NCBI RefSeq assembly: GCF_008642235.1
Contig: NZ_SJEV01000001.1
Location: 186,001 to 250,000, forward strand
DNA from: Planctomonas psychrotolerans
Lineage (GTDB): Bacteria > Actinomycetota > Actinomycetes > Actinomycetales > Microbacteriaceae
DNA length: 64,000 nucleotides
Direction of reading: 5' to 3'
Part shown: positions 11,123-64,000 of the stretch, piece after piece
Numbering within the stretch: the stretch's first letter is position 1
Layout of the letters: every line of letters begins with the position of its first letter
Program-made: the position numbers and the translations under genes
Notes under the pieces: model-generated
The model's database searches: none
What the model was told of the DNA's origin: nothing
Seen by the model: only the letters and a program-made list of their open reading frames with translations

Positions 11123-11380
11123 ATGAAGGGTGATCGAGTGGAGATCGTCGTCGATGCAGGCGACGCGACCCGCACATACGAGATAGAAGCGACGCGGGCC
11201 GGTCGGCGCTTGGAGATCGCGCACGGGCGCGGCCTGGTCGAGGTGAGCGAGGTGACCCGCGGCGGAACCGCGGTGCGCACCGCCCGTTTCATGGCGAACC
11301 GCGTCATCGCGTTGGTGGAGCATCCGGCCAAGCAGGCCCCGACCGCGGACGAACTGGCGACGTTGCACCGCATCGCCTGA
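11123..11380 (+). CDS. Small conserved-looking protein of unknown function
   Basis: An 85-aa protein, MKGDRVEIVVDAGDATRT onward. The alternating hydrophobic/charged pattern suggests a mainly beta N-terminal half and a helical end. The ATG at 11123 is chosen because AGGAG ends 7 nt upstream; a GTG at 11108 would place that site inside the gene. Third positions are G/C-rich, supporting real coding. I do not recognise a family. Confidence 0.65.
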   Translation: MKGDRVEIVVDAGDATRTYEIEATRAGRRLEIAHGRGLVEVSEVTRGGTAVRTARFMANRVIALVEHPAKQAPTADELATLHRIA

Positions 11381-11557
11381 GCACGGCGACAGGAAAACGG
11401 ATGAGGGCCGACCGCACACGCGGCCGGCCCTCTGTCGCGTCGCGGCGACGTCACGGCTTCATCCCTCGAGGGAGACCCGCAATCCGAGCGCCCGCAAAAG
11501 CCCGCGACTTCACCCGATGTTCACGCAGTCGCCCCGGCGATGGAGGAGGATCTGCCC

Positions 11558-11800
11558 ATGTCGATGTCTGAGCCGTTCCTTCCGCACCCCTCGCACGATG
11601 ACCGCACCGCGGCGGCCGAGCCCGGGGGTGAAGGTGCGCCGCTGTCGCAATCGGCGGAGGAACCCGACCTCCTGGGTGGCGAGAACGAGCCGAGCACCCC
11701 GGAACCCGACCTGGACGAGCGGGAGGACCCGCCGTTCCGTACGCCCCAAGCCGGAGACTCGGTGGACGAGGACGAGCTCCGCACTGACCTGAGCGACTGA
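11558..11800 (+). CDS. Small acidic, probably disordered protein
   Basis: An 80-aa protein rich in Glu, Asp, Pro and Ser, with no hydrophobic core, ending DSVDEDELRTDLSD. The ATG at 11558 is preceded by GGAGGAGGAT at a good distance; an ATG at 11540 would contain that site. Acidic proteins of this size are common in this family of bacteria and have no assigned role. It stands alone, 174 nt before the catalase. Confidence 0.6.
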   Translation: MSMSEPFLPHPSHDDRTAAAEPGGEGAPLSQSAEEPDLLGGENEPSTPEPDLDEREDPPFRTPQAGDSVDEDELRTDLSD

Positions 11801-11974
11801 GCCGGAGCACGGCGAAAAGGGCGCATAGGTCGGTGACTACGACGACGCAGCACCGCTCCGTCCTCGTCGTCACTTCGACTCCCTGAGAATTCCCACAGGA
11901 AGGAACTCCTCGGGTTCCCGAGGAGAAGGGTGGAAAGGGACGGCACGTGGTCGTCCCTACCGCGAGGAGCCCCC

Positions 11975-53559: not shown

Positions 53560-54576
53560 CTACTCGTCGGCGGTTTCCTGCTTACCGCGCATCACCAGCA
53601 GCGGGTCGGGCTTGCGGACGACGGAGTTGTCCCGGCCCTCGTAATCGAACTGCCCGAGAAAGAAGCGCATCGCGTTGAGGCGGGCGCGTTTCTTGTCGTT
53701 CGACCGGATGATCGTCCACGCCGCGTGCTTCTTATCGGTGCGCTGGAACATCTCCTCCTTGGCGGCCGTGTAGTCCTCCCAGCGATCGAGCGAGGCGAGA
53801 TCCATCGGGGAGAGCTTCCACCGACGCACGGGGTCGAGCTGACGGATCGCGAAGCGCGTGCGCTGCTCCGTTCGCGAGACGGAGAACCACAGCTTGGTCA
53901 CGTGGATGCCCGAGTCGACGAGCATCCGCTCGAACAGCGGCGCCTGCACCATGAACTCTTCGTACTGCGCGTCTGTGGAGAACCCCATGACCCGCTCCAC
54001 ACCCGCACGGTTGTACCAGGATCGGTCGAACAGCACGATCTCCCCCGCGGTCGGCAGATGCTGCACGTAGCGCTGGAAGTACCACTGACCCGTTTCGCGC
54101 TCGGTCGGCTTGCTGAGCGCTACCACACGCGCGGTGCGCGGGTTGAGGTGTTCGGTGAACCGCTTGATCGTGCCACCCTTGCCCGCGGCGTCGCGCCCCT
54201 CGAAGAGGATGATCGCGCGCCGGCCATTGTCCTCGAGCCAGTACTGGAACTTCAGCAGCTCGACCTGCAGCTTGTACTTCTCCAGCTCGTACTCGTCGCG
54301 ATCCATCCGCTCGGCATAGGGATAGCCCTCCTGCCATGTGTAGACCGGGTTGCCCTCCGGATCGATGAGGTCGGGATCGGGCGTGTGCCCGTCCTGAACC
54401 GAGTAGCCGGACTGCCGAAGGTGCTCGATGTAGTCCCGGAGTCCCTCAACCTGCAGATCGCTCAACGCGTACTCCTCACCCGACCGACGTCGTTTCCGTA
54501 CTGCATTATGGTCGCCTCCTCCGACGCGGGGGTGAATGCGGGGCGCCTCCGCTGTGCGACTCATCCCGCGGCGCAT
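53560..54576 (-). CDS. ppk2: Polyphosphate kinase 2
   Basis: A 338-aa PPK2 enzyme that interconverts polyphosphate and nucleotide phosphates. Walker A FEGRDAAGKGGTIKRF, then RVVALSKPTERE, FDRSWYNRAGVERVMGF (Walker B region) and the lid Arg segment SRTEQRTRF are all present. A ~100-residue N-terminal extension precedes the kinase core. Starts at 54576 and 54564 are equally possible. Given three phosphatases in this window, it fits local phosphorus metabolism, but it is not co-transcribed with them. Confidence 0.92.
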   Translation of the reverse strand: MRRGMSRTAEAPRIHPRVGGGDHNAVRKRRRSGEEYALSDLQVEGLRDYIEHLRQSGYSVQDGHTPDPDLIDPEGNPVYTWQEGYPYAERMDRDEYELEKYKLQVELLKFQYWLEDNGRRAIILFEGRDAAGKGGTIKRFTEHLNPRTARVVALSKPTERETGQWYFQRYVQHLPTAGEIVLFDRSWYNRAGVERVMGFSTDAQYEEFMVQAPLFERMLVDSGIHVTKLWFSVSRTEQRTRFAIRQLDPVRRWKLSPMDLASLDRWEDYTAAKEEMFQRTDKKHAAWTIIRSNDKKRARLNAMRFFLGQFDYEGRDNSVVRKPDPLLVMRGKQETADE

Positions 54577-54680
54577 GAATGAGTCGAGGTCGACTCTTAC
54601 TCGGGTGGTGCCCGACGCACGGGCGACGCGCCTCCCCCTTCCACCTCCGCAGGCTCTCCCGCCCTGAGTAGGGTCGAATC

Positions 54681-55733
54681 ATGGAATACCGCTATCTCGG
54701 CAACACAGGACTTCAGGTCTCCACCATCAGCCTCGGCACGATGGGCTTCGCGGGCACCGGCTGGGCGAGCCCGGTCGGCCACATCGACGTGGATGGCGCC
54801 CGCCGGCAGATCGACATCGCGCAGGAAGCCGGCGTGAACCTCATCGACACCGCCGACGTCTACTCGGAGGGCGCCTCCGAGGAGATCCTCGGCCAGGCCC
54901 TCGGTGCCAAGCGCGACCAGATGCTCATCGCGACCAAGGCGCGCGGCGGCATGGGCGACGGACCGAACGACGCCGGACTCTCCCGCCACCACATCGTCCG
55001 GGCCGCCGAGGACAGCCTGCGCCGCCTCGGCACCGACTACATCGACCTCTACCAGCTGCACGGCTGGGACGGCAAGACTCCCCTCGAGGAGACCCTCTCC
55101 GCCCTCGACGACCTCGTGCGCTCGGGCAAGGTCCGCTACATCGGTGCGTCCAACTTCTCCGGTTGGCACCTGATGAAGGCGCTCTGGTCATCCGACAAGC
55201 ACGGTCGCGAGCGCTTCGCCAGCCAGCAGATCTACTACTCGCTGCAGTCCCGGGACGCGGAGAACGAGCTCGTGCCGATCACCCTCGACCAGGGCCTCGG
55301 CATCCTCGTCTGGAGCCCGCTCGCCGGCGGACTGCTCACCGGCAAATACCGCAAGGGCCAGGATGCGCCCGAGGGCTCGCGCCGCTTCGAGGGCTGGACC
55401 GAACCGCCCATCTACGACGAGGACCGCCTCTACACCACCATCGAGGTGCTGGTCGAGATCGCGAACGACCGTAATGCGTCCGCTACTCAGGTCGGATTGG
55501 CGTGGACCCTGGCCAAGCCCGGCGTCACCTCCACGATCGTCGGCGCTCGCACCGAGGAGCAGCTGACGGACAGCCTCGGTGCCGCCGACCTACAACTGAC
55601 GGATGCCGAGATCGCGCGACTCGACGAGGCAAGCGCCACCCCCCTCCCCTACCCGTACTGGCACCAGGCCAACACGGCCGACGGACGGTCGAGCGCGGCC
55701 GACCTCAGCCTCATCGCGCGACACATTAACTAG
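54681..55733 (+). CDS. Aldo/keto reductase
   Basis: A 350-aa NADPH-dependent oxidoreductase. The catalytic tetrad is visible: Asp56 and Tyr61 (DTADVYSEG), Lys86 (LIATKARGG) and His127 (LYQLHGWD). The cofactor-binding end is TSTIVGARTEEQLTDSLGA. The C-terminus WHQANTADGRSSAADLS is also found, degraded, at about 62.95 kb. Monocistronic, with GAGTAGGG before the ATG. Confidence 0.93.
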   Translation: MEYRYLGNTGLQVSTISLGTMGFAGTGWASPVGHIDVDGARRQIDIAQEAGVNLIDTADVYSEGASEEILGQALGAKRDQMLIATKARGGMGDGPNDAGLSRHHIVRAAEDSLRRLGTDYIDLYQLHGWDGKTPLEETLSALDDLVRSGKVRYIGASNFSGWHLMKALWSSDKHGRERFASQQIYYSLQSRDAENELVPITLDQGLGILVWSPLAGGLLTGKYRKGQDAPEGSRRFEGWTEPPIYDEDRLYTTIEVLVEIANDRNASATQVGLAWTLAKPGVTSTIVGARTEEQLTDSLGAADLQLTDAEIARLDEASATPLPYPYWHQANTADGRSSAADLSLIARHIN

Positions 55734-55850
55734 TCCCGTACGGCCCTGCGGTACGCCGCGGGGCCGTACCGCGACCGTTCACCGGGACCCGCTCGTATGC
55801 ATGCGGGCTATCGCGACGATGCGGCTCGGCGGCGCGCGGTCGCCGAGGTC

Positions 55851-56522
55851 TCAGTCCGTCGTGTCGGTCCAGGACGCGATGTCCACGCCGTGGTTGTCGG
55901 GCGATGCCAGCGTCCACCAGGCGGGGGCGTTCGAGTCGTCGACCAGCCTGCCGCCCGCGGCGATCGCGGCATCCACCCGTGCCCGGGCCTGGTCGTCCGG
56001 CACGAAGACGTCGAAGTGCGTGCGGCCCCGCGCCGGGGCGTCGCCGGTGATCGGGTTGAACGCGAGCTGCGGTCCGCAGCGCAGGGGGTCGACGGCATCC
56101 GTGTCGCCCAAGTCCTCGTAGCCCAGAGCCGCCGCGAAGAATGGCCGGACGTCGGCCTCGGAATGCTGCGCCACGTAGATGCCAATCGACTGCACGCGCG
56201 ACGGATCGGCGGTCAGCCGCAGCTCCCTGGCCGCCGCGGACACGGCCGCCGCGAACTCCGGTGCCGCCGCGGGTATGCCCTGGAAGGTGCGGTCGGGTAT
56301 GCGCACGACCACCGCCTCGGGTCGCACGTCGATGTCGGGCAATACGCCGAACCGCGCTGCGGCGTCGACGACCGCGGGCACGATCGCCGCAGCGTCGACG
56401 AGGGATGGCGCGACGAATACGGCCTGCGGGCCGGTTGCGGTCACTCGCCAGTCGGCCACCCCGTGCGCCCGGTGGAACTCAGCCGGGGAGATCCACTCGG
56501 CACTGCTCGTTGTCTCGCTCAC
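55851..56522 (-). CDS. VOC (glyoxalase-fold) family protein
   Basis: A 223-aa protein. Its N-terminal ~100 residues resemble a pterin-dehydratase-like or effector domain (ISPAEFHRAHGVADWRVTATG). The C-terminal half is a glyoxalase/VOC domain (FFAAALGYEDLGDTDAVDPL, RTHFDVFVPDDQARARVDAA, ASPDNHGVDIASW). Arrangements of a 4a-hydroxytetrahydrobiopterin dehydratase-like domain plus VOC are known in actinobacteria; I infer this architecture from pattern. AAAGGAG precedes the GTG start. Role unknown. Confidence 0.78.
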   Translation of the reverse strand: MSETTSSAEWISPAEFHRAHGVADWRVTATGPQAVFVAPSLVDAAAIVPAVVDAAARFGVLPDIDVRPEAVVVRIPDRTFQGIPAAAPEFAAAVSAAARELRLTADPSRVQSIGIYVAQHSEADVRPFFAAALGYEDLGDTDAVDPLRCGPQLAFNPITGDAPARGRTHFDVFVPDDQARARVDAAIAAGGRLVDDSNAPAWWTLASPDNHGVDIASWTDTTD

Positions 56523-56770
56523 GCGCACTCCTTTCAAGGTGTTCCCGGGTCGCGTGCCGCAAGCAGGCGATAGCCCCGCGTGGTCAGCACAGTACTCGTG
56601 GCGTGAGGGTGCCCGGAAGCCCGTCGGACGCCTGTTCCGGCACCGGTGCCGACGAGTTCGTGCGGCGCTGACGGGCCGAGCCGTCGGCCGGCAGAGCTGC
56701 GGGCTTGCGGGCCTCGGGCCGCGGGCTGCGAACTTGCGGGCCGCGGGTTGCGCACACGGGATAATGAGGC

Positions 56771-57037
56771 ATGTCCTTCGTCGAACGCCGCTCCAATCCC
56801 CTCGCCTGGGCCGCATTCTGGTTCGCGTTGGCGGGTCTCGTGCTCATGCCCATCCCGCTGTTCATCGGGCTGATCCTGGGCGGCGGTCTCTCCATCGTCG
56901 CTGCCATCCTCGCCGCGATCGCCCTCTTCAAGGGGCTCGCGCGCAGCGGCAAGGGGATCGCACCTGTCGTATTCGCCGCGATCTTCATCTCGCTCACGTG
57001 GGGCGGCATCTCGCTCGGAGGCGGGATCATCTGGTAG
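56771..57037 (+). CDS. Small membrane protein, possibly leaderless
   Basis: An 88-aa protein with two to three hydrophobic segments (NPLAWAAFWFALAGLVLMPI; FIGLILGGGLSIVAAILAAI; a third near the end), similar in style to DUF4190 proteins. GATAAT (56760-56765) ends 5 nt before the ATG, the spacing of a -10 box for a leaderless transcript, although GAGG also lies close by. Function unknown. It is the last gene before the lower-GC island. Confidence 0.65.
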   Translation: MSFVERRSNPLAWAAFWFALAGLVLMPIPLFIGLILGGGLSIVAAILAAIALFKGLARSGKGIAPVVFAAIFISLTWGGISLGGGIIW

Positions 57038-57243
57038 GTCGACCGGCCGGTGATTCTGCTCATCAAGATCCTCAGTGCATCTGCTGCCAGGATTGCGACG
57101 GTTCGGATGTGCTTTCGCGAACAGCTGTCGATCCAACGAGAACTGAACCTGCGCCCCCTCGTAAGGTTGCTCACTTCCCTGAGAGTCAGGCTCCCTCGAC
57201 AGCTAGCCACGGCTCAGCTCTACCGGAGCGGCTGGCGACCTGA

Positions 57244-59031
57244 TCAGCCTGTTCGACGGCGAGGTTTGGTTACTGGAGAAGCTTCGCCAGTGGGGCTACC
57301 AAGTGCGTCGGCAATGTACTCCCGAAGGGACGGGTCGCACACGTACATGTAGGTGCCACGCATCCCGCGTGTCAGCAGTACGCCATATATATTGCGGATG
57401 AACTCAAGTAATTCCTCATCGGAGTAGACGATCCCGCGCTGCTTGTTGTTCTGTTTACCTCTCGCATCGCGGTACGAGGCGCGGTCGATGTAGAAAGAAC
57501 GTGACTCGGCGTCATAACGGAGGTCATCGCCGATGATGACTCCTGCATAGTTCAGGTCGTATCCCTGGACAGTGTGGATAGAGCCAACTTCGTGGATTGA
57601 CGCCGGGCTGCTGATCCAGTCCTTCTCTTGACTATTCCAGCGCAAACTCACACCATCCAGTTCGATGTCGAACGCTGACTTGTCGCGCTTACTTTTCCAC
57701 GTCCACGCATACCCTGCTACGAGGCGAGCAAGACCGTGCTCGGCGTTCCTATCGAGGATCTCGTGTTGCATCGCTGCCAGATCATCGAACATCCTGAGAT
57801 CATAATCGCCGAAGTCGGGGCGGCTCGACTGGTTGGTTTCGCCGCGCAGCAGCGCCCGAACAAATTTCACGTAGTTTGTCCCCGCGCGCACCCGCATCTG
57901 AGTGGACAACGGGTACCGGCGATGTGCCGAGTGGGCTTCATCGACGAGCGAGCGGAGGACCTTCTGCGGAAGGTCAGCCGGCCGCACCGTCTGCTCGGCA
58001 TCGAGCAGGTAGATTTGGTGCGCGCTTTGAGCACGGATCCAATCTAGTTGCGTCTTCGAGTGGTCGTCGGCGCCGAACAGTTTCTCGTTGATCGCCGAGA
58101 ACCTTGTGTTGTTGACAGCGGACGACTGGTTGGCGCGTTGATTCAGGCGATGCGTTTCATCCACGATAAGAACGTCCCAGTACTGATCGGATACCCCCAC
58201 GTCGAACGGCGTGATTATCTGGCTCGCATTTACCTTCGGTGTCTTCTTGAACACGCGCTTGATCGACTCCCGTAGGGATTGCTGCGGCACGACCAATCCG
58301 ATCCGAATGTCTGCGAGCAGTGCACGATTCTCTGGGACGAAGAACTCGGCGAATATCGAATCGGGCTCAATCTCATCTGCGTCCTCGAAGTCGCGGATGT
58401 CTGCGAGGAGTTTCATGAGAAAGATGGCAACAATTGTCTTGCCGGTTCCTGGATACCCCTCGATCACGCTCGCCGACTGAGCACCCGTGCGAAGGTCTTC
58501 TAGCAGCCCTTCGACGATGTCTTCAACGGCGATCGCCTGCTCAGGCGTGAGCACCTTGAACGGCGAAAGCTTGAACAGGTCGCTGTTCTCAATCTCAGGG
58601 ATGCTTCGCTGGAAGATCCCCGCTGACCGTAGCTGCTCGAAGATATCGCGGAAGCTCTCCCGATACAGGTCGCGCCCGTAGTAACGAGCATCGATGATGC
58701 CCTCATTGCCATTCATCACCCGGAACTGCCCATCACCGGCGAGCCACCGGATCAAATGTGATTCCAGATCGAGGCACACGGACTTGTTGAAGGTCTCGTC
58801 GATGACGACACGCACGCTCTCGAACCCGCTCTTGGCAGGGTTCGCGAGATGTTGGCGCATGCGAGAAGCAGCATTGACCGTCTCGCCGACATATACGGTC
58901 GCGGCGCCCTGCGAGTCCGCACAATTGAGTACGTAGACGACTGGCCAGTTCCGGCGGCGTTCATCGCCGGACGCCCAACTCGAGATCGCGGGCGCGGTGA
59001 AGTGGAACTGCTCGAGCTCAAAGGGAGTCAT
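57244..59031 (-). CDS. GIY-YIG nuclease-like domain fused to a DUF2075 helicase-like ATPase
   Basis: A 595-aa protein. Residues ~30-100 form a GIY-YIG-like domain (VVYVLN and VYVGETVNAASRMRQHL). From ~150 comes a DUF2075/Schlafen-like superfamily-1 ATPase: EGYPGTGKT (191-199), DVLIVDETH (286-294), a DAEQ-like motif (342-347), VGSIHTVQGYDL (482-493) and LLTRGMRGTYMY (552-563). The ATG at 59031 has no consensus ribosome site but lies inside the upstream MazG gene (14-nt overlap), so it is coupled. Similar pairs occur in defence islands; activity against phage or plasmid nucleic acid is an inference. Confidence 0.82.
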   Translation of the reverse strand: MTPFELEQFHFTAPAISSWASGDERRRNWPVVYVLNCADSQGAATVYVGETVNAASRMRQHLANPAKSGFESVRVVIDETFNKSVCLDLESHLIRWLAGDGQFRVMNGNEGIIDARYYGRDLYRESFRDIFEQLRSAGIFQRSIPEIENSDLFKLSPFKVLTPEQAIAVEDIVEGLLEDLRTGAQSASVIEGYPGTGKTIVAIFLMKLLADIRDFEDADEIEPDSIFAEFFVPENRALLADIRIGLVVPQQSLRESIKRVFKKTPKVNASQIITPFDVGVSDQYWDVLIVDETHRLNQRANQSSAVNNTRFSAINEKLFGADDHSKTQLDWIRAQSAHQIYLLDAEQTVRPADLPQKVLRSLVDEAHSAHRRYPLSTQMRVRAGTNYVKFVRALLRGETNQSSRPDFGDYDLRMFDDLAAMQHEILDRNAEHGLARLVAGYAWTWKSKRDKSAFDIELDGVSLRWNSQEKDWISSPASIHEVGSIHTVQGYDLNYAGVIIGDDLRYDAESRSFYIDRASYRDARGKQNNKQRGIVYSDEELLEFIRNIYGVLLTRGMRGTYMYVCDPSLREYIADALGSPTGEASPVTKPRRRTG

Positions 59032-59338
59032 ACTTTGTACTCCGTCCCTTCGCGCGTTCTGCGGGGTACTTCTCCTCCGTGGAGGCAAGCTTCTCCAGCA
59101 CAATCTCGTCTAGATCGACGCCCAATCGCGCTGCAAGCAACGTGCAGTACGTCACGACATCGGCTAGCTCCTCGCATACTCGCGACTGGTCGCCGTCGTC
59201 GTTCCATTGGAAGCATTCCAACAGCTCGCCCGCTTCGATCGAAATGCTTTTCGCGAGGTTCGCCGGAGTGTGAAATTGGGCCCAGTCACGCTCACGAACG
59301 AACGCCTCTAAGGCTCGCTGAACACGCTCACTTGTCAC
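59018..59338 (-). CDS. MazG-like nucleotide pyrophosphohydrolase
   Basis: A 106-aa all-alpha NTP pyrophosphatase of the MazG/RS21-C6 family, probably hydrolysing dCTP-like or modified nucleotides. Metal-binding motifs: SISIEAGELLECFQW (ExxE) and EELADVVTYC (ExxD), then NxKYPxExxKG as EEKYPAERAKG. The GTG at 59338 places the start just before the domain. The gene ends 14 nt inside the DUF2075 gene, so the two form one unit. Nucleotide hydrolysis beside a helicase-nuclease suggests abortive or nucleotide-depletion defence (inference). Confidence 0.85.
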   Translation of the reverse strand: MTSERVQRALEAFVRERDWAQFHTPANLAKSISIEAGELLECFQWNDDGDQSRVCEELADVVTYCTLLAARLGVDLDEIVLEKLASTEEKYPAERAKGRSTKYDSL

Positions 59339-59803
59339 ACTCGCGACCGTATCAGCACACCTGAGCCCATACTCCGCCGAACAACGATCCTGCAGACGAG
59401 CCCTCACGTACCAACCAAGCAGGTTTCGTCAATTACCGCAGCCTGCGCGGCCTCCTTCGTTCGCTAGGTTGGCTCGCATGTTCACCGTGAAGCGCTGCAG
59501 CTCAACTACTAGCGTGCGGCGCGAACTTGATCGGCTCTATTGGGTGACGCCAGGCGACTTGGGCGAGGTTGCATAGCTGCTGTCTGACCGGTTCGCATTG
59601 CCCACGGCAGGGCGAGCCGAAAAGAGATTCTTGACCTACCGAACTTGCGACCGATTGAAGGAGGTGCGCGACAACCGAAAAGCGCGCCGGGTCATTTCAT
59701 CACACATCATCGGGGCCGCTGAGGGCAATCTTCGACGCCTGAGCATCGACTGCATTCGGATGCGACGAAATTCCTCTGCGACCGCACTTGCCCAGCGCCT
59801 AGC
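59339..59803. other. Gene-poor spacer upstream of the MazG-DUF2075 operon
   Basis: 465 bp. On the minus strand TTGACG (59427-59432) with TACGTG (59405-59410) at 16-bp spacing is a weak promoter candidate for the MazG operon. A frame at 59598 (plus) runs into the insertion element and looks like chance. The right end carries CTAG (59799-59802), the left target-site copy of the insertion element. Otherwise I see nothing. Confidence 0.45.
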
Positions 59804-60756
59804 TGTACTGAGCCATCGAGTTGGTGACACTCAGGCTGCGGGTGTGAGGCCGTGGCTGGAGTGGATTCGACCAGTGTTGTAGTGCGCGATCCAGGGCGCA
59901 AAGGGCGTCGGCCCGAGCGGTGTTCGAGGTAAATGGTTGCCGGTAGGCCCACTCGGTTGCGAGGGTCAGGTCGGAGCGCTCAACTTTTCCGTTCTGCCAG
60001 GGGCAGTGCGGCTTGATGAACTTCTGAGTGGCGCCGAGCACGGCGACGGCGGGGAACGCGGCCGACTTCCGGTAAGCGAAAGCGTTGTCGGTGATGACGC
60101 GCTCGATCTTCTCGATGCCGTGTCTTTGGAAGTAGGCCGCCGCTTTGGAGAGGAACCCGGCTGCAGTGATGGCCTTCTCATCGGGGTGGATCTCGGCGTG
60201 GGCGCGCCGGGTGGGTCTTTGACCGCGGCGTGGACGTAGTCGAACCCGATCCGGTTCTTCCGGTCGTTCGTGCCCGCGGCACGGCCGTGAACTCACCATC
60301 CGCCACCGTCCGGGATGCGGTCAAGCCTCTTCACGTCGACATGCACCAGCTCACCTTGGTCTGTCCCGTTCGTACCGGTTCGCCGTCGACCGGGACGCCC
60401 TGATCGAGGCCCGGTGACAGGGTCGAGCCACGCCAGCGGCGGGACCTAATGCCGGGTCAGGATGCGGGAAATCGTCCGGGCCGGGACGCCGGTCACCGAC
60501 GCTAGTCGGGGGGGCCCGAACCGCAGGCGCGTCCGCGCTTCGAGCACGGCTGCCTCGCGTTGCGGGGTGGCCCGGGTTGGCGTGGTGCGGGGCCGACTGG
60601 ACCGGTCGGCCAACCCTGCAACGCCTTCGGCCCGAAAGCGTGCACCCACCGGTGCGCGCATTGGCGCGAAACACCGAGTTCTTTGGTCACGTGAGCGACG
60701 TGCCGGCCCTCACGGATCACTCTGTGAACAAGCAAAGCCCTCCCGCGGGTCGTCAA
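59799..60756 (-). pseudogene. IS481 transposase, multiply frameshifted
   Basis: Fragments in three frames: HTH part HVTKELGVSRQCAHRWVHAFG (about 60690-60640), a second piece RFRAEGVAGLADRSSRP (to 60446), a link ANRYERDRP, and the DDE core with VITDNAFAYRKS and HCPWQNGKVERS ending VTNSMAQYS. At least two or three frameshifts and an internal stop break it. The terminal TAG (59799-59801) comes from the CTAG target, a feature of this IS family. It cannot encode an active transposase. Confidence 0.85.
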
Positions 60757-60876
60757 ACGAGCATTAGCGTGGAGCAGGGGACCTCCTGGCGATGGTTGAA
60801 CTAGTCAGCTCCATCAAGCCAGGGGTCTCGCTACATCACAAGCCCGAAAGTGTCACCAACGTCACGGCCGAGAACA
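59804..60876. mobile_element. IS481-family insertion sequence (decayed)
   Basis: A ~1073-bp element. The left end begins TGTACTGAGCCATCGA then GTTGGTGACACT (59804-59831). The right end, read inward, is TGTTCTCGGCCGTGAC then GTTGGTGACACT (60876-60849). The ends share the last 12 bases exactly and most of the first 16. CTAG flanks both sides (59799-59802; 60878-60881), matching the NCTAGN target of IS481. The outer N positions differ, so the exact duplication length is uncertain. Boundaries were set by eye. Confidence 0.8.
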
Positions 60877-60877
60877 A

Positions 60878-62632
60878 CTAGACGGCATTCTGTGGTGCTT
60901 CGTGAGGCCATCGCTCAATGCACCAATCTGCCAGTTCAGTACTCCGAGAGTCGACCTCGGCCGGAGTCCAATCTGGATACTTCTTGGCGAATGTGCGTGC
61001 GCTGGTGAAGGCAGACATCGACTCGAACTTCGGCGCTTTGACACTGTAGGCACTTGTTTGCAACTGCCCATTCATTTGGGAACTGAGCGGAATCAAGTTG
61101 GCGAAAAGGTCTTTCTGACGGGCGTGCTCAGAAGCCGAGAACTTCGACCAGTTCTTCGATGACGCTTGTGGTAGAACGTGCTCTATCCACATCGTGAGAG
61201 AGGAAACATCGTCCCCGCCCAGCGACTCCTCATATTGCATGAGCACATAGCGATCGATCGAAGTACCGTAAAGGGGAAGAGTTTTGACTGACTCCCTAAC
61301 CTCATAGCTCGATGGCCACTGAACTGTCTTACGGGTGGCAATTCTCGCAGAAACGTTAGCACCCGACGGTTTCCCGTCAACTTCTCCCCACAGGCCCTTG
61401 AATACGGCATGAAGACCTGTTGGCTCGTGCCCGCAGAGCGCGCGTCTAACGAGGAAAGAATCGAGCACTCTCATGGTTTCCAACGCATCCGATTCGTTGA
61501 CGTCACCCCTCGATATACCAACGGAAAGGTTCATCAGGAATGGATATATGGAACTGGGCGCACCCATACCGTAGAACCGGCGAAATGCCTTCCTGATCGA
61601 TTTGGGATGATTGCTAGAATTTGTGCCGAATTTCAAATCGAGGAACGGCGCCTGGTACACCGAAAGTTCTTCGACCACGTCCTCCGGCTTCTTCCCCACC
61701 CAATGTGACTTCAGGGCCGCGTAGACGTCGGATTTCCTGAGGTTGGAATCGTAGATGAGTCCGAAAGGAAAAAAGTAGTCGTCAAAATATTCCTTCTTGT
61801 CGACCTTGAACTTCTGATAGAACGGGCCCCAGTAATGGGTGTCCACCCGGACTGCTTCGTCCGGATCGTCCGCTGCGGTCTTCGCGAAGACATCGTTACG
61901 GACGAGGTCCCCAGTCGTCATCGGCTCCTGGCCGGAATTCAGACTATCGAAGATTTTCGGCCCATTAGTTGGGTCTTTGATGTCGATCTGCACGATCGTC
62001 ATTGACTGAACTAGACGCGCGTATATTTGGCCAAGCCGAGCGGCACCCTCGACTCTGACTTGTTTGCGTAAGAACGATTTTGCAGCTTTATAGTTGGTCG
62101 CCACCCGTTGATTGCTTTCCACACTGCTCGGTAGTGGGCTGAGCTTGAATCCCTCAAGGCTCTTGTCGAAGTTTCTGGTAGCCAGTACTTCTCGAATGAC
62201 CGCGTTCATGTCCCCTTGGTCTTCCTTGGACGACTGAAGCTTGATATTCGACTTGTTGTGATACCCGCCGCTAGCTATGTACTTCCGGAATATCTTCTGA
62301 GCTTCGACTGTCTCACCAAGCTCTATATACATCTGCACAACCGCGCACAGGTAGAGGTAGATGGTCGTGAGTCGCTGTTGACCGTCGATGACTTGGTAGG
62401 CGTCGGGATCAGACGGATCGGTGTAAAGGCCATGGTGAATCACAGCGCCAAGGAAGTGCACGTCATTGGTTCCGTCAACGAGCGCCAGAAGGTCCTTCTC
62501 AAACTGTACGAGGCGCTTGGGCATCCACTTATATGGCCGCTGGAAGAAAGGAATCACGAATATTGCGTCTCGCCCGATGAGCGAGCCGATGTCTGTTTCG
62601 TGGGTATTGTTTGTCAGCTTGACAATCGACAC
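60878..62632 (-). CDS. DUF262/DUF1524 protein (GmrSD-like type IV restriction nuclease)
   Basis: A 584-aa protein. The DUF262 (ParB/Srx-like NTPase) part begins at once: FVIPFFQRPYKW (25-36) and VIDGQQRLTT (81-90). The C-terminal DUF1524 HNH-type nuclease part has MWIEHVLPQ (His485) and FANLIPLSS (from about 510). This fused order is that of GmrSD-type enzymes that cut modified phage DNA. The GTG at 62632 has GGGA upstream; longer frames lack domain support. G+C is clearly below the window average, suggesting transfer. The IS481 element lies one base after its TAG. Confidence 0.85.
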   Translation of the reverse strand: MSIVKLTNNTHETDIGSLIGRDAIFVIPFFQRPYKWMPKRLVQFEKDLLALVDGTNDVHFLGAVIHHGLYTDPSDPDAYQVIDGQQRLTTIYLYLCAVVQMYIELGETVEAQKIFRKYIASGGYHNKSNIKLQSSKEDQGDMNAVIREVLATRNFDKSLEGFKLSPLPSSVESNQRVATNYKAAKSFLRKQVRVEGAARLGQIYARLVQSMTIVQIDIKDPTNGPKIFDSLNSGQEPMTTGDLVRNDVFAKTAADDPDEAVRVDTHYWGPFYQKFKVDKKEYFDDYFFPFGLIYDSNLRKSDVYAALKSHWVGKKPEDVVEELSVYQAPFLDLKFGTNSSNHPKSIRKAFRRFYGMGAPSSIYPFLMNLSVGISRGDVNESDALETMRVLDSFLVRRALCGHEPTGLHAVFKGLWGEVDGKPSGANVSARIATRKTVQWPSSYEVRESVKTLPLYGTSIDRYVLMQYEESLGGDDVSSLTMWIEHVLPQASSKNWSKFSASEHARQKDLFANLIPLSSQMNGQLQTSAYSVKAPKFESMSAFTSARTFAKKYPDWTPAEVDSRSTELADWCIERWPHEAPQNAV

Positions 62633-62774
62633 AGGGTCCCTTCTTTGCCAGTAGTTGGTGTGAATAGTCGTGTGCGAATTCCAGCTGGAGATTCTCCTAG
62701 ACACTGCATCAGCGTAGGGCAGGGGTGCCGCTAGACGGTGAAGTGCCATCCTTTTCCCCGAATGAAAAATTGCC

Positions 62775-63015
62775 CGATACACGGCTTGGATGCTGGCTAA
62801 TATCGGTGTCACGTCCACGATTGTCGATGCTCGCACGACGAGCAGCTGACGGACAACCTCGGCGCCGCCGACCTGAAGTTGACCGACACGGAGCTTGTGC
62901 GACTCAATGACGCGAGTGCGACCCGCTCCCCTACCCGTACTGGCACCAGGCCAAAACCGCGGACGCTCGCTCGAGCGCAGCCGACCTCAGCCTTCTCAAG
63001 CGGCTACATTCCTGA
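62775..63015 (+). pseudogene. Degraded 3' fragment of a second aldo/keto reductase gene
   Basis: Read across two frameshifts it encodes TAWMLANIGVTSTIVDAR, then LTDNLGAADLKLTDTELVRLNDASATR, then PYPYWHQAKTADARSSAADLS and a stop at 63013-63015. This matches the last ~80 residues of the intact reductase at 54681-55733 almost residue for residue. Nucleotide similarity is high but not identical. Single-base deletions (after GCTCGCA and in CCCGCTCCCC) break the frame. The 5' part of the gene is missing; the sequence to the left is the DUF262 upstream region. Confidence 0.85.
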
Positions 63016-63371
63016 TCGGTGGGCCAAGCAGCGATACGGCATGGTCGACATCGCAACCCGGTGGCTCGACGCTGATCGGCATAGGCATCGTTCCGATCGG
63101 GAGTCTGCCGCTGCGCCCCGGACGTGGACGTCAGGTGTGCGCCGCTCTCTGGCCTATCGGTCGCGAGCCCGTAGCGACTCCGGCCAACCGCAACCAGCCC
63201 CCGCAGACGACGCCTGTGAGGGAGCTGAAATTGCCGAGAACCTCTATCTGCGCGTCCTATACTCTAAAACGTTCGGTGTCGACCGGCAGGCACGAACGGC
63301 AAATGGGCGTTTGTTGGAGTCTGTGCGGAGCTGGGAAGCACTGCAAAGCGCCGGTCCAGGACGCCCCGTCT
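63016..63371. other. Spacer without recognised genes
   Basis: 356 bp between the reductase remnant and the methyltransferase stop. Open frames on the plus strand cross it but mix the remnant with antisense methyltransferase sequence and show no family pattern. I see no promoter, hairpin or repeat I would defend. Confidence 0.5.
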
Positions 63372-64000
63372 TTACTCAGCCCCGTGTATGTATAGGTAGA
63401 TCGACTCGGCTATCTTGCGTCCGAGCGGGATGGGCACCGCGTTGCCGAACTGCAGTTTGGACCCGTAACACTCGAAGTCATCAGGGACCCCCAGAAGCTT
63501 GGCCGCTTCGAAGTCAGTCGGGTGGAGGTACCGACCCTTCTCAGGCTTGAAGAACTCCGTCCGGATCGTCACAGAGGGCGCCCCGCTCCGGAGCCGACCC
63601 ATGACATCTCCGGAGCTGGCGTCGCGCAAGTCCCACGCCACGGTAGAGAGGTATTCGAGGACAACCGTCCGATGTGCGTCGCCCTCAGTGAGAACAACAT
63701 GGAATATCTCCGACTTGCTGCGACGGCTCCTCGACCTCGTGCACTCCGAGACGGGATTGGCAGTGCTCACGGTGAATCGACGCTTTGTGGCGGCACCATC
63801 GACCACAACGATGTGCGCACCAAGAACGTTCAACGACCCATCGTTGTGTCGGTGGTCGCCCACCTTTTGGAGGACGAGCTCGCTGCCGTCATCGAAGCGA
63901 CACACATACCGACCGCGGAGGTCCTTCCGGTTGCCACCTTTCGAGATCGCGCGATAGCGCCACAGCGAGATCAGCTCTGGTCTGCGGCCAATGTGAAGGT
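63372..64000 (-). CDS. C5 cytosine DNA methyltransferase, C-terminal part (runs off the window)
   Basis: The frame is open to the window's right edge (reading LHIGRRPELISLWRYRAISK at the edge), so only the last ~209 residues are seen. The end matches C5-methyltransferase motifs: TIRTEFFKPEKGRYLHPTD, then FEAAKLLGVPDDF (motif IX-like) and LQFGNAVPIPLGRKIAESI (motif X, GNAVP). The catalytic PCQ motif would lie outside. A ~70-residue segment around GAHIVVVDGAA is unlike typical members and may be a target-recognition or inserted region. Its closeness to a GmrSD-like gene suggests a restriction/defence context. Confidence 0.8.
   Translation of the reverse strand, partial: LHIGRRPELISLWRYRAISKGGNRKDLRGRYVCRFDDGSELVLQKVGDHRHNDGSLNVLGAHIVVVDGAATKRRFTVSTANPVSECTRSRSRRSKSEIFHVVLTEGDAHRTVVLEYLSTVAWDLRDASSGDVMGRLRSGAPSVTIRTEFFKPEKGRYLHPTDFEAAKLLGVPDDFECYGSKLQFGNAVPIPLGRKIAESIYLYIHGAE

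Follow-up and report, generated by a model that had tools for sequence, protein, structure and literature searches.

Within a stretch of 64,000 nucleotides from the actinobacterium Planctomonas psychrotolerans (contig NZ_SJEV01000001.1; hereafter the window), two overlapping genes on the minus strand encode a small MazG-like protein and a larger protein predicted to combine a GIY-YIG nuclease with a helicase of superfamily 1 (SF1). Comparisons across several genome collections establish that MazG and the nuclease-helicase form a genuine two-gene unit, and this pair looks like an undescribed antiviral unit.

Two overlapping genes and their products

The first gene of the pair (59018 to 59338) starts with GTG at 59338, stops at 59018 and encodes a 106-amino-acid protein classed as a MazG-like / dCTPP1-type deoxynucleoside triphosphate (dNTP) pyrophosphohydrolase. 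The second (57244 to 59031), for a GIY-YIG nuclease joined to an SF1 helicase of the SLFN-g3 family, starts with ATG at 59031, stops at 57244 and encodes 595 amino acids. Read directly from the sequence, the genes share 14 nucleotides (59018 to 59031), and a putative Shine-Dalgarno-like GGAG at 59040 to 59043 lies inside mazG, 8 nucleotides ahead of the nuclease-helicase ATG. The original prediction, made from the letters alone, had placed this overlap in a region of lower GC content. Indeed, both reading frames are as it described, and GC content is 0.575 to 0.593 in 1-kb windows across 57001-60000, versus 0.634 to 0.729 over the first 57 kb. A search of 57000-59800 turned up no promoter-like site, terminator-like sites were uninformative, and no Rfam family matched at the gathering threshold across 54000-64000.

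The smaller protein matches the Pfam family MazG-like PF12643 (E value 1.4e-20), and its closest solved structures are those of RS21-C6 / dCTP pyrophosphatase 1 (DCTPP1), aligned over nearly the whole length (E 1.3e-18). Eight of its residues (W19, H23, E35, E38, W45, E57, D60 and Y64) are each identical in 74 of 74 MazG homologues and align with W47, H51, E63, E66, W73, E95, D98 and Y102 of DCTPP1. The four acidic metal ligands (ExxE ... ExxD) of the MazG-like / DCTPP1-type all-alpha nucleoside triphosphate pyrophosphohydrolases are present, in a segment (59159 to 59236, minus strand) that spans E35-x2-E38, W45 and E57-x2-D60 and is defined by conservation and the DCTPP1 alignment. According to one report, the DCTPP1 pocket includes E63, E66, W73, E95 and D98, His38 bonds cytosine, and the human enzyme prefers dCTP among dNTPs and 5-methyl-dCTP over dCTP (PMC4491611). 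The position equivalent to His38 is residue 10, which is Leu in 59, Ile in 12 and Val in 3 of the 74 homologues. Because this base-contacting histidine is absent, we name the protein dCTPP1-type rather than DCTPP1. In a structural model of a fused homologue (see below), the MazG domain shares 40-41% identity with the mouse dCTPase whose structure contains 5-methyl-dCMP (5-Me-dCMP). The window MazG protein itself has no PADLOC match at E values up to 1. We take E. coli Orf135 to be a NUDIX enzyme. Both Orf135 and DCTPP1 are cited as 5-methyl-dCTP hydrolases in PMC10742078.

The larger protein matches SLFN-g3_helicase PF09848 (formerly DUF2075; E 5.8e-66), and Pfam and structural matches together place the helicase domain at residues 188-566 (57334 to 58470). 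The match to GIY-YIG PF01541 lies exactly at the cut-off (E 1.3e-4), and the L. plantarum homologue (locus L036) gives a stronger one (E 4.2e-6); conserved columns and the model set the nuclease domain at residues 30-110 (58702 to 58944). Across 55 aligned sequences, Y33, Y47, G49, R57 and E90 are invariant, as are G192, G195, G197, K198 and T199 of the P-loop or Walker A motif (residues 192-199; 58435 to 58458), D291-E292 of Walker B (58156 to 58161) and R555, and N107 is kept in at least 90% of them. The protein carries the profile match, intact Walker A and B motifs and motif VI of an SLFN-g3 helicase. Similarly, it has the profile match and the Tyr, Tyr, Arg, Glu and Asn (Y33, Y47, R57, E90 and N107) of a GIY-YIG domain, residues that we take to be the catalytic set, and DNA nuclease activity is predicted. 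Judged from this alignment, the motifs are not a product of chance, and the GIY-YIG-like N-terminus, P-loop, Walker B and SF1-like motifs that had been read by eye all hold.

An AlphaFold2 model of the nuclease-helicase is of high quality (mean predicted local distance difference test, pLDDT, 90.4; predicted template modeling score, pTM, 0.88). Its helicase part resembles UvrD (Z score 21.9), SLFN11 (Z 18.6) and Dda (Z 17.5), as well as HelD and RecD2. The structural comparison took in residues 108-586; assignment of the GIY-YIG fold therefore relies on profiles, residue conservation and secondary structure, the model of this part having strands at 31-38, 44-51 and 72-78 plus helices. The family profile also weakly reaches structure records that we take to be T4 endonuclease II (E 0.0067) and I-TevI (E 0.012).

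Recurrence of the pair

In a first search of 59 genomes, including that of P. psychrotolerans, the helicase was matched at E 1e-10 in 16. At all nine loci whose helicase is at least 53% identical (the window included), MazG lies upstream, and its end falls at an identical point within the helicase gene. A collection scan with the nuclease-helicase then gave 581 confirmed relatives, and the best 80 were used for counting. In 74 of these 80 loci, the gene immediately upstream on the same strand encodes MazG, and in one of the 74 the two are fused in frame. Overlap and conservation were counted on the 73 helicases and 73 MazG genes that passed length and gap filters. Both genes passed in 69 loci, and these delimited pairs overlap by 14 nucleotides in 59 cases, by 4 in six, by 20 in three and by 11 in one. 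Because of an assembly gap in its helicase gene, L028 was excluded from later alignments, and L121 was dropped from these counts for its run-on MazG frame. L093 and L094 are copies that share a contig. The evolutionary distances of the two proteins are correlated across the 69 pairs (Mantel r 0.67, with 0 of 999 permutations as high), a value that also reflects the shared descent of the hosts.

In Phycicoccus sp. HDW14 both genes form one reading frame of 682 amino acids (P0003), which matches MazG-like and SLFN-g3 and, below threshold, GIY-YIG. The model of this fusion has pLDDT values of 29-37 in residues 101-180, the GIY-YIG part, an effect of the misalignment of helicase N-termini with MazG columns.

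Co-occurrence, which the original prediction had proposed to count, was also scored in 150 genomes drawn evenly from the host family. MazG was matched in 33 of them (31 full length, 2 short pieces) and the helicase in 34, with a close match in 33 and a distant one in the last. Each of the 31 full-length MazG homologues shares its genome with a close helicase, 30 adjacent to it and one (G117) 1.1 kb off. Fisher's exact test, in which relatedness of the genomes is ignored, gives p ~4e-30 for the strict table and 2e-26 when the short pieces and the distant match are included. In a sample of the class, the helicase (E 1e-40) is present in only 17 of 394 genomes and is therefore an accessory element. 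MazG stands beside it in all 17, upstream in 16 and divergent in one; three of these genomes are also in the family set.

Beyond this clade the arrangement becomes looser. Twenty-one plasmid records hold a relative of the L. plantarum MazG, and 11 of these also carry an SLFN-g3 helicase, within one gene of it in 6 and ~4 to 10 kb apart in 5 (one counted across the record start). MazG is likewise present in all four phage-collection records that carry the helicase, three of them being unannotated gut contigs, and a scan of the viral_contigs collection with the nuclease-helicase returned no relative. MazG may lie upstream (L. plantarum), downstream (L. salivarius) or divergently (L139).

Several relatives, in Halalkalicoccus jeotgali, Priestia, Halomonas, Marivirga and two actinobacterial loci (L030 and L033), have an N-terminus without GIY-YIG and with a D...E-L-K motif, which by eye resembles a PD-(D/E)XK-like domain. 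The archaeon H. jeotgali has MazG 5 nucleotides upstream of its SLFN-g3 helicase, and in Priestia the distance is 59 nucleotides, with type I restriction-modification genes and MutT adjoining. In Halomonas, MazG is matched weakly (E 8e-4), and in Marivirga it adjoins a helicase spread over several frames. The association thus follows the SLFN-g3 motor, and the nuclease domain looks exchangeable.

Restriction genes and signs of insertion

A GmrSD-type nuclease gene (60878 to 62836, minus strand; PF03235 E 8.7e-28, PF07510 E 5.4e-16) lies in the same inserted segment as the pair and is context rather than a member of it. Of the two neighbors named in the original prediction, this one stands, and the DNA methyltransferase is a C-terminal C5 fragment only (63372-63905, covering positions 269-322 of 324 in PF00145). 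The island continues beyond the window with C5 methyltransferases and, from L018 17055 to L019 11434, DISARM DrmB (E 1.4e-68), DrmA (split by the boundary of the fetched stretch into two parts with E 2.5e-111 and 6.6e-124), a TmtA-like protein of 1588 amino acids (E 2.1e-46), a UvrD-like helicase, a C5 methyltransferase and a Vsr-like reading frame recognized by eye, and ends before a tRNA-Pro. The DISARM core genes drmA and drmB are not members of the pair; both lie ~12 kb away.

Restriction-type genes recur around relatives of the pair. With queries from the window's own island and from the loci of other relatives, they were found within 10 kb of 27 of the 80 pair loci versus 0 of 60 controls, which were random 20-kb stretches from 20 genomes of the class, mostly of the host family. 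Own-island queries alone gave 22 of 80 versus 0 of 60, and an earlier comparison, in which some queries came from the same 80 loci, gave 28 of 80 versus 0 of 60. Because all context queries come from pair neighborhoods, these numbers show recurrence and are not an unbiased defense score. The query labels Vsr, McrB, McrC, HsdR-like and HK-ATPase were assigned by eye, and C5 methyltransferase, GmrSD, DrmA, DrmB and Z1 are confirmed by profiles. In addition, relatives of a protein with exonuclease, BRCT and Swt1-like HEPN parts (L098, 3-1730) occur near 9 of the 80 loci, its own included, and near none of the 60 controls.

Two loci from different phyla place the pair in a larger operon. L. plantarum (L036) and Microbacterium esteraromaticum (L056) share the order NUDIX, SauUSI-like enzyme, MazG, GIY-YIG/SLFN-g3. 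The L036 SauUSI-like protein matches PADLOC mREase_IV (E 1.6e-262), with PLD, SF2 (superfamily 2) helicase and DUF3427 parts all present, and is 42% identical to that of L056. SauUSI acts on DNA containing 5-methylcytosine (m5C, or 5mC) or 5-hydroxymethylcytosine (hm5C, or 5hmC), according to PMC3874153. By tblastn, with some queries taken from pair loci themselves, SauUSI-like PLD/SF2/DUF3427 matches were found at 10 of 88 pair loci versus 0 of 60 controls, four of the ten (L047, L059, L105 and L122) being short, weak or truncated at a contig end. NUDIX genes, with 7 of 88 versus 1 of 60, show no clear excess.

The NUDIX and SauUSI-like genes are also neighbors elsewhere. A NUDIX gene lies within 70 nucleotides in 4 of 7 plasmid records with a full-length SauUSI-like relative (NZ_CP028230, CP033372, CP117684 and NZ_CP077890), and an S. 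aureus record has the two 1 nucleotide apart. MutT homologues adjoining SauUSI homologues have already been drawn, according to a figure legend in PMC7641849. A NUDIX (deoxy)nucleoside triphosphate pyrophosphohydrolase gene lies directly upstream of SauUSI-like enzymes at L205 (8726-11963), L206 (5998-9297) and L204 (2592-6339). A MazG gene comes next in CP033372 and, as third gene, at L204; the annotation of the sequence fetched there lists no SLFN helicase. Four NUDIX proteins were scanned and scored between the models of MutT and of pyrimidine (deoxy)nucleoside triphosphate diphosphatases, below curated cut-offs except for the Priestia MutT, which passes TIGR00586.

The window also bears marks of insertion. 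The 3′ end of an aldo/keto reductase gene (54681-55733) is duplicated ~7 kb downstream at 62783-62993 (80% over 213 bp), and transposase remnants, comprising an rve_3 integrase-core fragment and, by eye, helix-turn-helix-like reading frames in other frames, lie at 59799-60756 between the pair and the GmrSD gene. An intact gene and a second copy of its 3′ end thus bracket the pair, the transposase remnants and GmrSD, which is the signature of an inserted cassette. Both same-genus genomes (L208 and L209) have quite different genes next to the same aldo/keto reductase, whose 3′ side therefore looks like an insertion hotspot; in both, the flanks of the island are on different contigs, and a clean empty site was not demonstrated. 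A relative, G033 (L024), carries the pair with McrBC-like genes (by eye) between oxidoreductase copies at 129-930 and 11150-11951 (84%, 802 bp), with further flanking duplications. Broken restriction genes were seen as well, namely the C5 methyltransferase in pieces (63372-63905) and a DEAD helicase split over two frames (L018, 9372-13192).

Possible function and relation to known systems

Our preferred reading, which is tentative and a serious possibility, is that the pair is an accessory unit against mobile elements, in which a type IV-like, modification-dependent nuclease-helicase acts together with a pool-cleaning pyrophosphohydrolase. Type IV restriction enzymes have no partner methyltransferase. 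Specifically, the SF1 motor would load on and translocate along foreign DNA with a 5-substituted cytosine such as 5hmC or 5mC, which the N-terminal nuclease (GIY-YIG here, and by eye PD-(D/E)XK-like in other lineages) would cut; modification-dependent cleavage is a mode of action that we infer from the genomic context. The dCTPP1-type MazG, encoded first and coupled by the overlap, would hydrolyze 5-modified dCTP and perhaps dCTP. Modified nucleotides set free from degraded or modified DNA would thereby be kept from entering the host chromosome and exposing it to the nuclease, and the phage would be prevented from rebuilding its modified DNA.

Two unrelated pyrophosphohydrolases, MazG and NUDIX, among whose relatives are enzymes that act on 5-methyl-dCTP, are found beside two unrelated ATP-driven nucleases, one of which belongs to a family that cuts DNA with 5-modified cytosine, and a common account in terms of modified cytosine is therefore the simplest. 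The tight overlap, like the fused frame, is consistent with a protective partner that is required whenever the nuclease is present. A general principle might follow: modification-dependent nucleases may carry their own nucleotide-pool cleaners, MazG serving SLFN-g3 nuclease-helicases and NUDIX serving SauUSI-type enzymes, such that 5-modified dCTP is stripped away and only invader DNA is marked. We regard this extension as doubtful. If true, cells would tell self from non-self through their DNA precursors rather than through methylation. How, then, might such a nuclease avoid attacking self when modified nucleotides re-enter the pool? To our knowledge, this question has not been examined before, and the conserved pair, known from bacteria and, in the form of a relative, from an archaeon, offers a concrete two-gene system for it.

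Several observations weigh against the modified-cytosine reading, and some of them concern the pairing itself. MazG lies ~1 kb upstream in 1 of the 80 loci and was missing from 5 (tblastn, E 1e-3); a tenth, more distant locus of the first search (G020, L028) has none, and 2 of the 33 family genomes with a close helicase (G020 and G095) lack it. The fusion is a single record, in which a one-base sequencing error at the junction is possible. Outside the actinobacterial clade, MazG is often not present nearby: of 9 plasmid helicase loci taken with flanks of 6 kb, 2 (L. plantarum and L. salivarius) gave a tblastn match to the window MazG. Even among actinobacterial relatives without GIY-YIG, it is beside only 2 of 6 (L030 and L033). 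Other observations concern the proposed target. The dCTP specificity of the window MazG is not assured, since His38 is replaced by Leu, Ile or Val. A Pfam scan of the nuclease-helicase found no domain that reads modified bases, such as SRA or EVE. In 13 of the 80 loci a C5 methyltransferase homologue is encoded within 10 kb, and the window's own island has one of full length; the target thus cannot simply be every 5mC. The full four-gene operon is known from two loci only.

The surroundings, too, are less than uniform. A PADLOC scan of directly adjacent genes at E 1e-15 matched 102 families (for 120 of 157 picked neighbors) versus 41 (for 120 of 120 controls), no family had more than two members in either set, no defense family was dominant, and the controls also held candidates such as JetA and PD-T4-6; as support for a defense role, this comparison is weak. 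The defense setting expected in the original prediction is borne out by the island itself; across the loci it finds support in the restriction genes within 10 kb and less in the immediate neighbors.

The original prediction had assigned MazG a role in nucleotide depletion. In that account, infection would lead MazG to destroy dCTP or other dNTPs and so starve the replicating phage, while the nuclease-helicase degrades nucleic acid, in the manner of dCTP deaminase or dGTPase defenses. Depletion of DNA precursors is a known defense strategy, dCTPP1-like enzymes hydrolyze dCTP itself, and both the conserved pairing and the patchy, accessory distribution in the class would suit it. However, no sensor or switch was seen that would silence MazG in healthy cells, the characterized relatives are house-cleaning enzymes, and the association of the pair with SauUSI-like and NUDIX genes would be left unexplained. 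The likeness to dCTPP1 and the operon with SauUSI-like and NUDIX genes instead point to cytosine-modification biology and pool cleaning, and we consider depletion unlikely.

A little less probable again is a sensor or antitoxin-like arrangement, in which MazG would remove a nucleotide (a modified dNTP or an alarmone) that triggers the nuclease-helicase, until infection swamps MazG and the nuclease is released. The MazG gene comes first with a tight overlap, the fused frame fits a regulatory interaction, and PMC12707154 suggests that monitoring of the pool converted to 5-hydroxymethyl-dCTP (5hmdCTP) could serve in phage detection. Yet the nuclease-helicase has no evident ligand-binding domain besides its ATPase, and in 5 of 80 loci the helicase occurs without MazG. 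If MazG is an effector or a sensor, the pair would represent a new architecture for nucleotide-based immunity.

Least probable of the three is a housekeeping role in repair or replication, in which a pool sanitizer would accompany a repair nuclease-helicase with no function in defense. The original prediction had named mostly housekeeping neighborhoods as a finding that would speak against a defense module, and the outcome is mixed: alongside the loci with restriction genes, 53 of the 80, about two thirds, have none of those tested within 10 kb, and the genes around L026 look metabolic by eye. The helicase is folded like UvrD (Z 21.9), and MazG and NUDIX proteins are house-cleaning enzymes. 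However, presence is patchy, with a close helicase in 33 of 150 family genomes, copies occur in plasmid and virus-labeled records, the locus carries an insertion signature, and the excess of restriction genes over the controls (27 of 80 versus 0 of 60) also speaks against a housekeeping function. A toxin-antitoxin system of the MazEF kind was set aside by eye, with no search aimed at MazE or MazF.

Whether the modified-cytosine reading or one of these accounts is correct, genes annotated as nucleotide pyrophosphohydrolases beside a "DUF2075 domain-containing protein" gain a testable role. The original prediction knew of no mechanism for this pair, which agrees with our search of the open-access literature: no paper combines DUF2075 with MazG or GIY-YIG (subscription papers and preprints lay outside the search), and the DUF2075 papers found are unrelated by title.

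Parts of the pair resemble known proteins. With DCTPP1 / RS21-C6, the MazG protein has in common the two base-pocket tryptophans, the four metal ligands, Tyr102 and a C-terminal KY; unlike DCTPP1, it lacks His38, and its gene runs into that of a nuclease-helicase or, in one record, forms a fusion with it. Among PADLOC models, PDC-S41 matches the SLFN-g3 region (E 3.7e-10), including that of relatives without GIY-YIG (to E 2.2e-19), and PDC-S14 matches the GIY-YIG part (E 6.5e-10). The "S" presumably denotes a single-gene system; both are candidate models, the only kind in PADLOC for the helicase or nuclease part, and no MazG partner was found for them. The helicase fold is shared with human Schlafen proteins over ~270-278 residues (SLFN11, Z 18.6; SLFN14, Z 17.5), whereas the Schlafen core (AlbA_2) RNase domain is absent among the 11 Pfam families matched at E values up to 1.

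An N-terminal GIY-YIG domain in a defense protein is also found in CMoRE, a single-chain restriction enzyme for 5hmC and its glucosylated form (5ghmC). CMoRE differs from the window protein by its GIYxY-YIG motif and by a sensing domain at the C-terminus, and no helicase is mentioned in the accessible text (PMC12923530). The window protein reads VVYVL, with no Tyr two residues after Y33. Finally, SauUSI-type enzymes have a PLD nuclease, an SF2 motor and DUF3427, in contrast to the GIY-YIG and SF1 parts of the window protein, which has no PLD or DUF3427 match. Regardless of these differences in parts, both kinds of protein unite an ATP motor and a nuclease in one chain, both are found beside a dNTP pyrophosphohydrolase, and SauUSI-like enzymes can share one operon with the pair.

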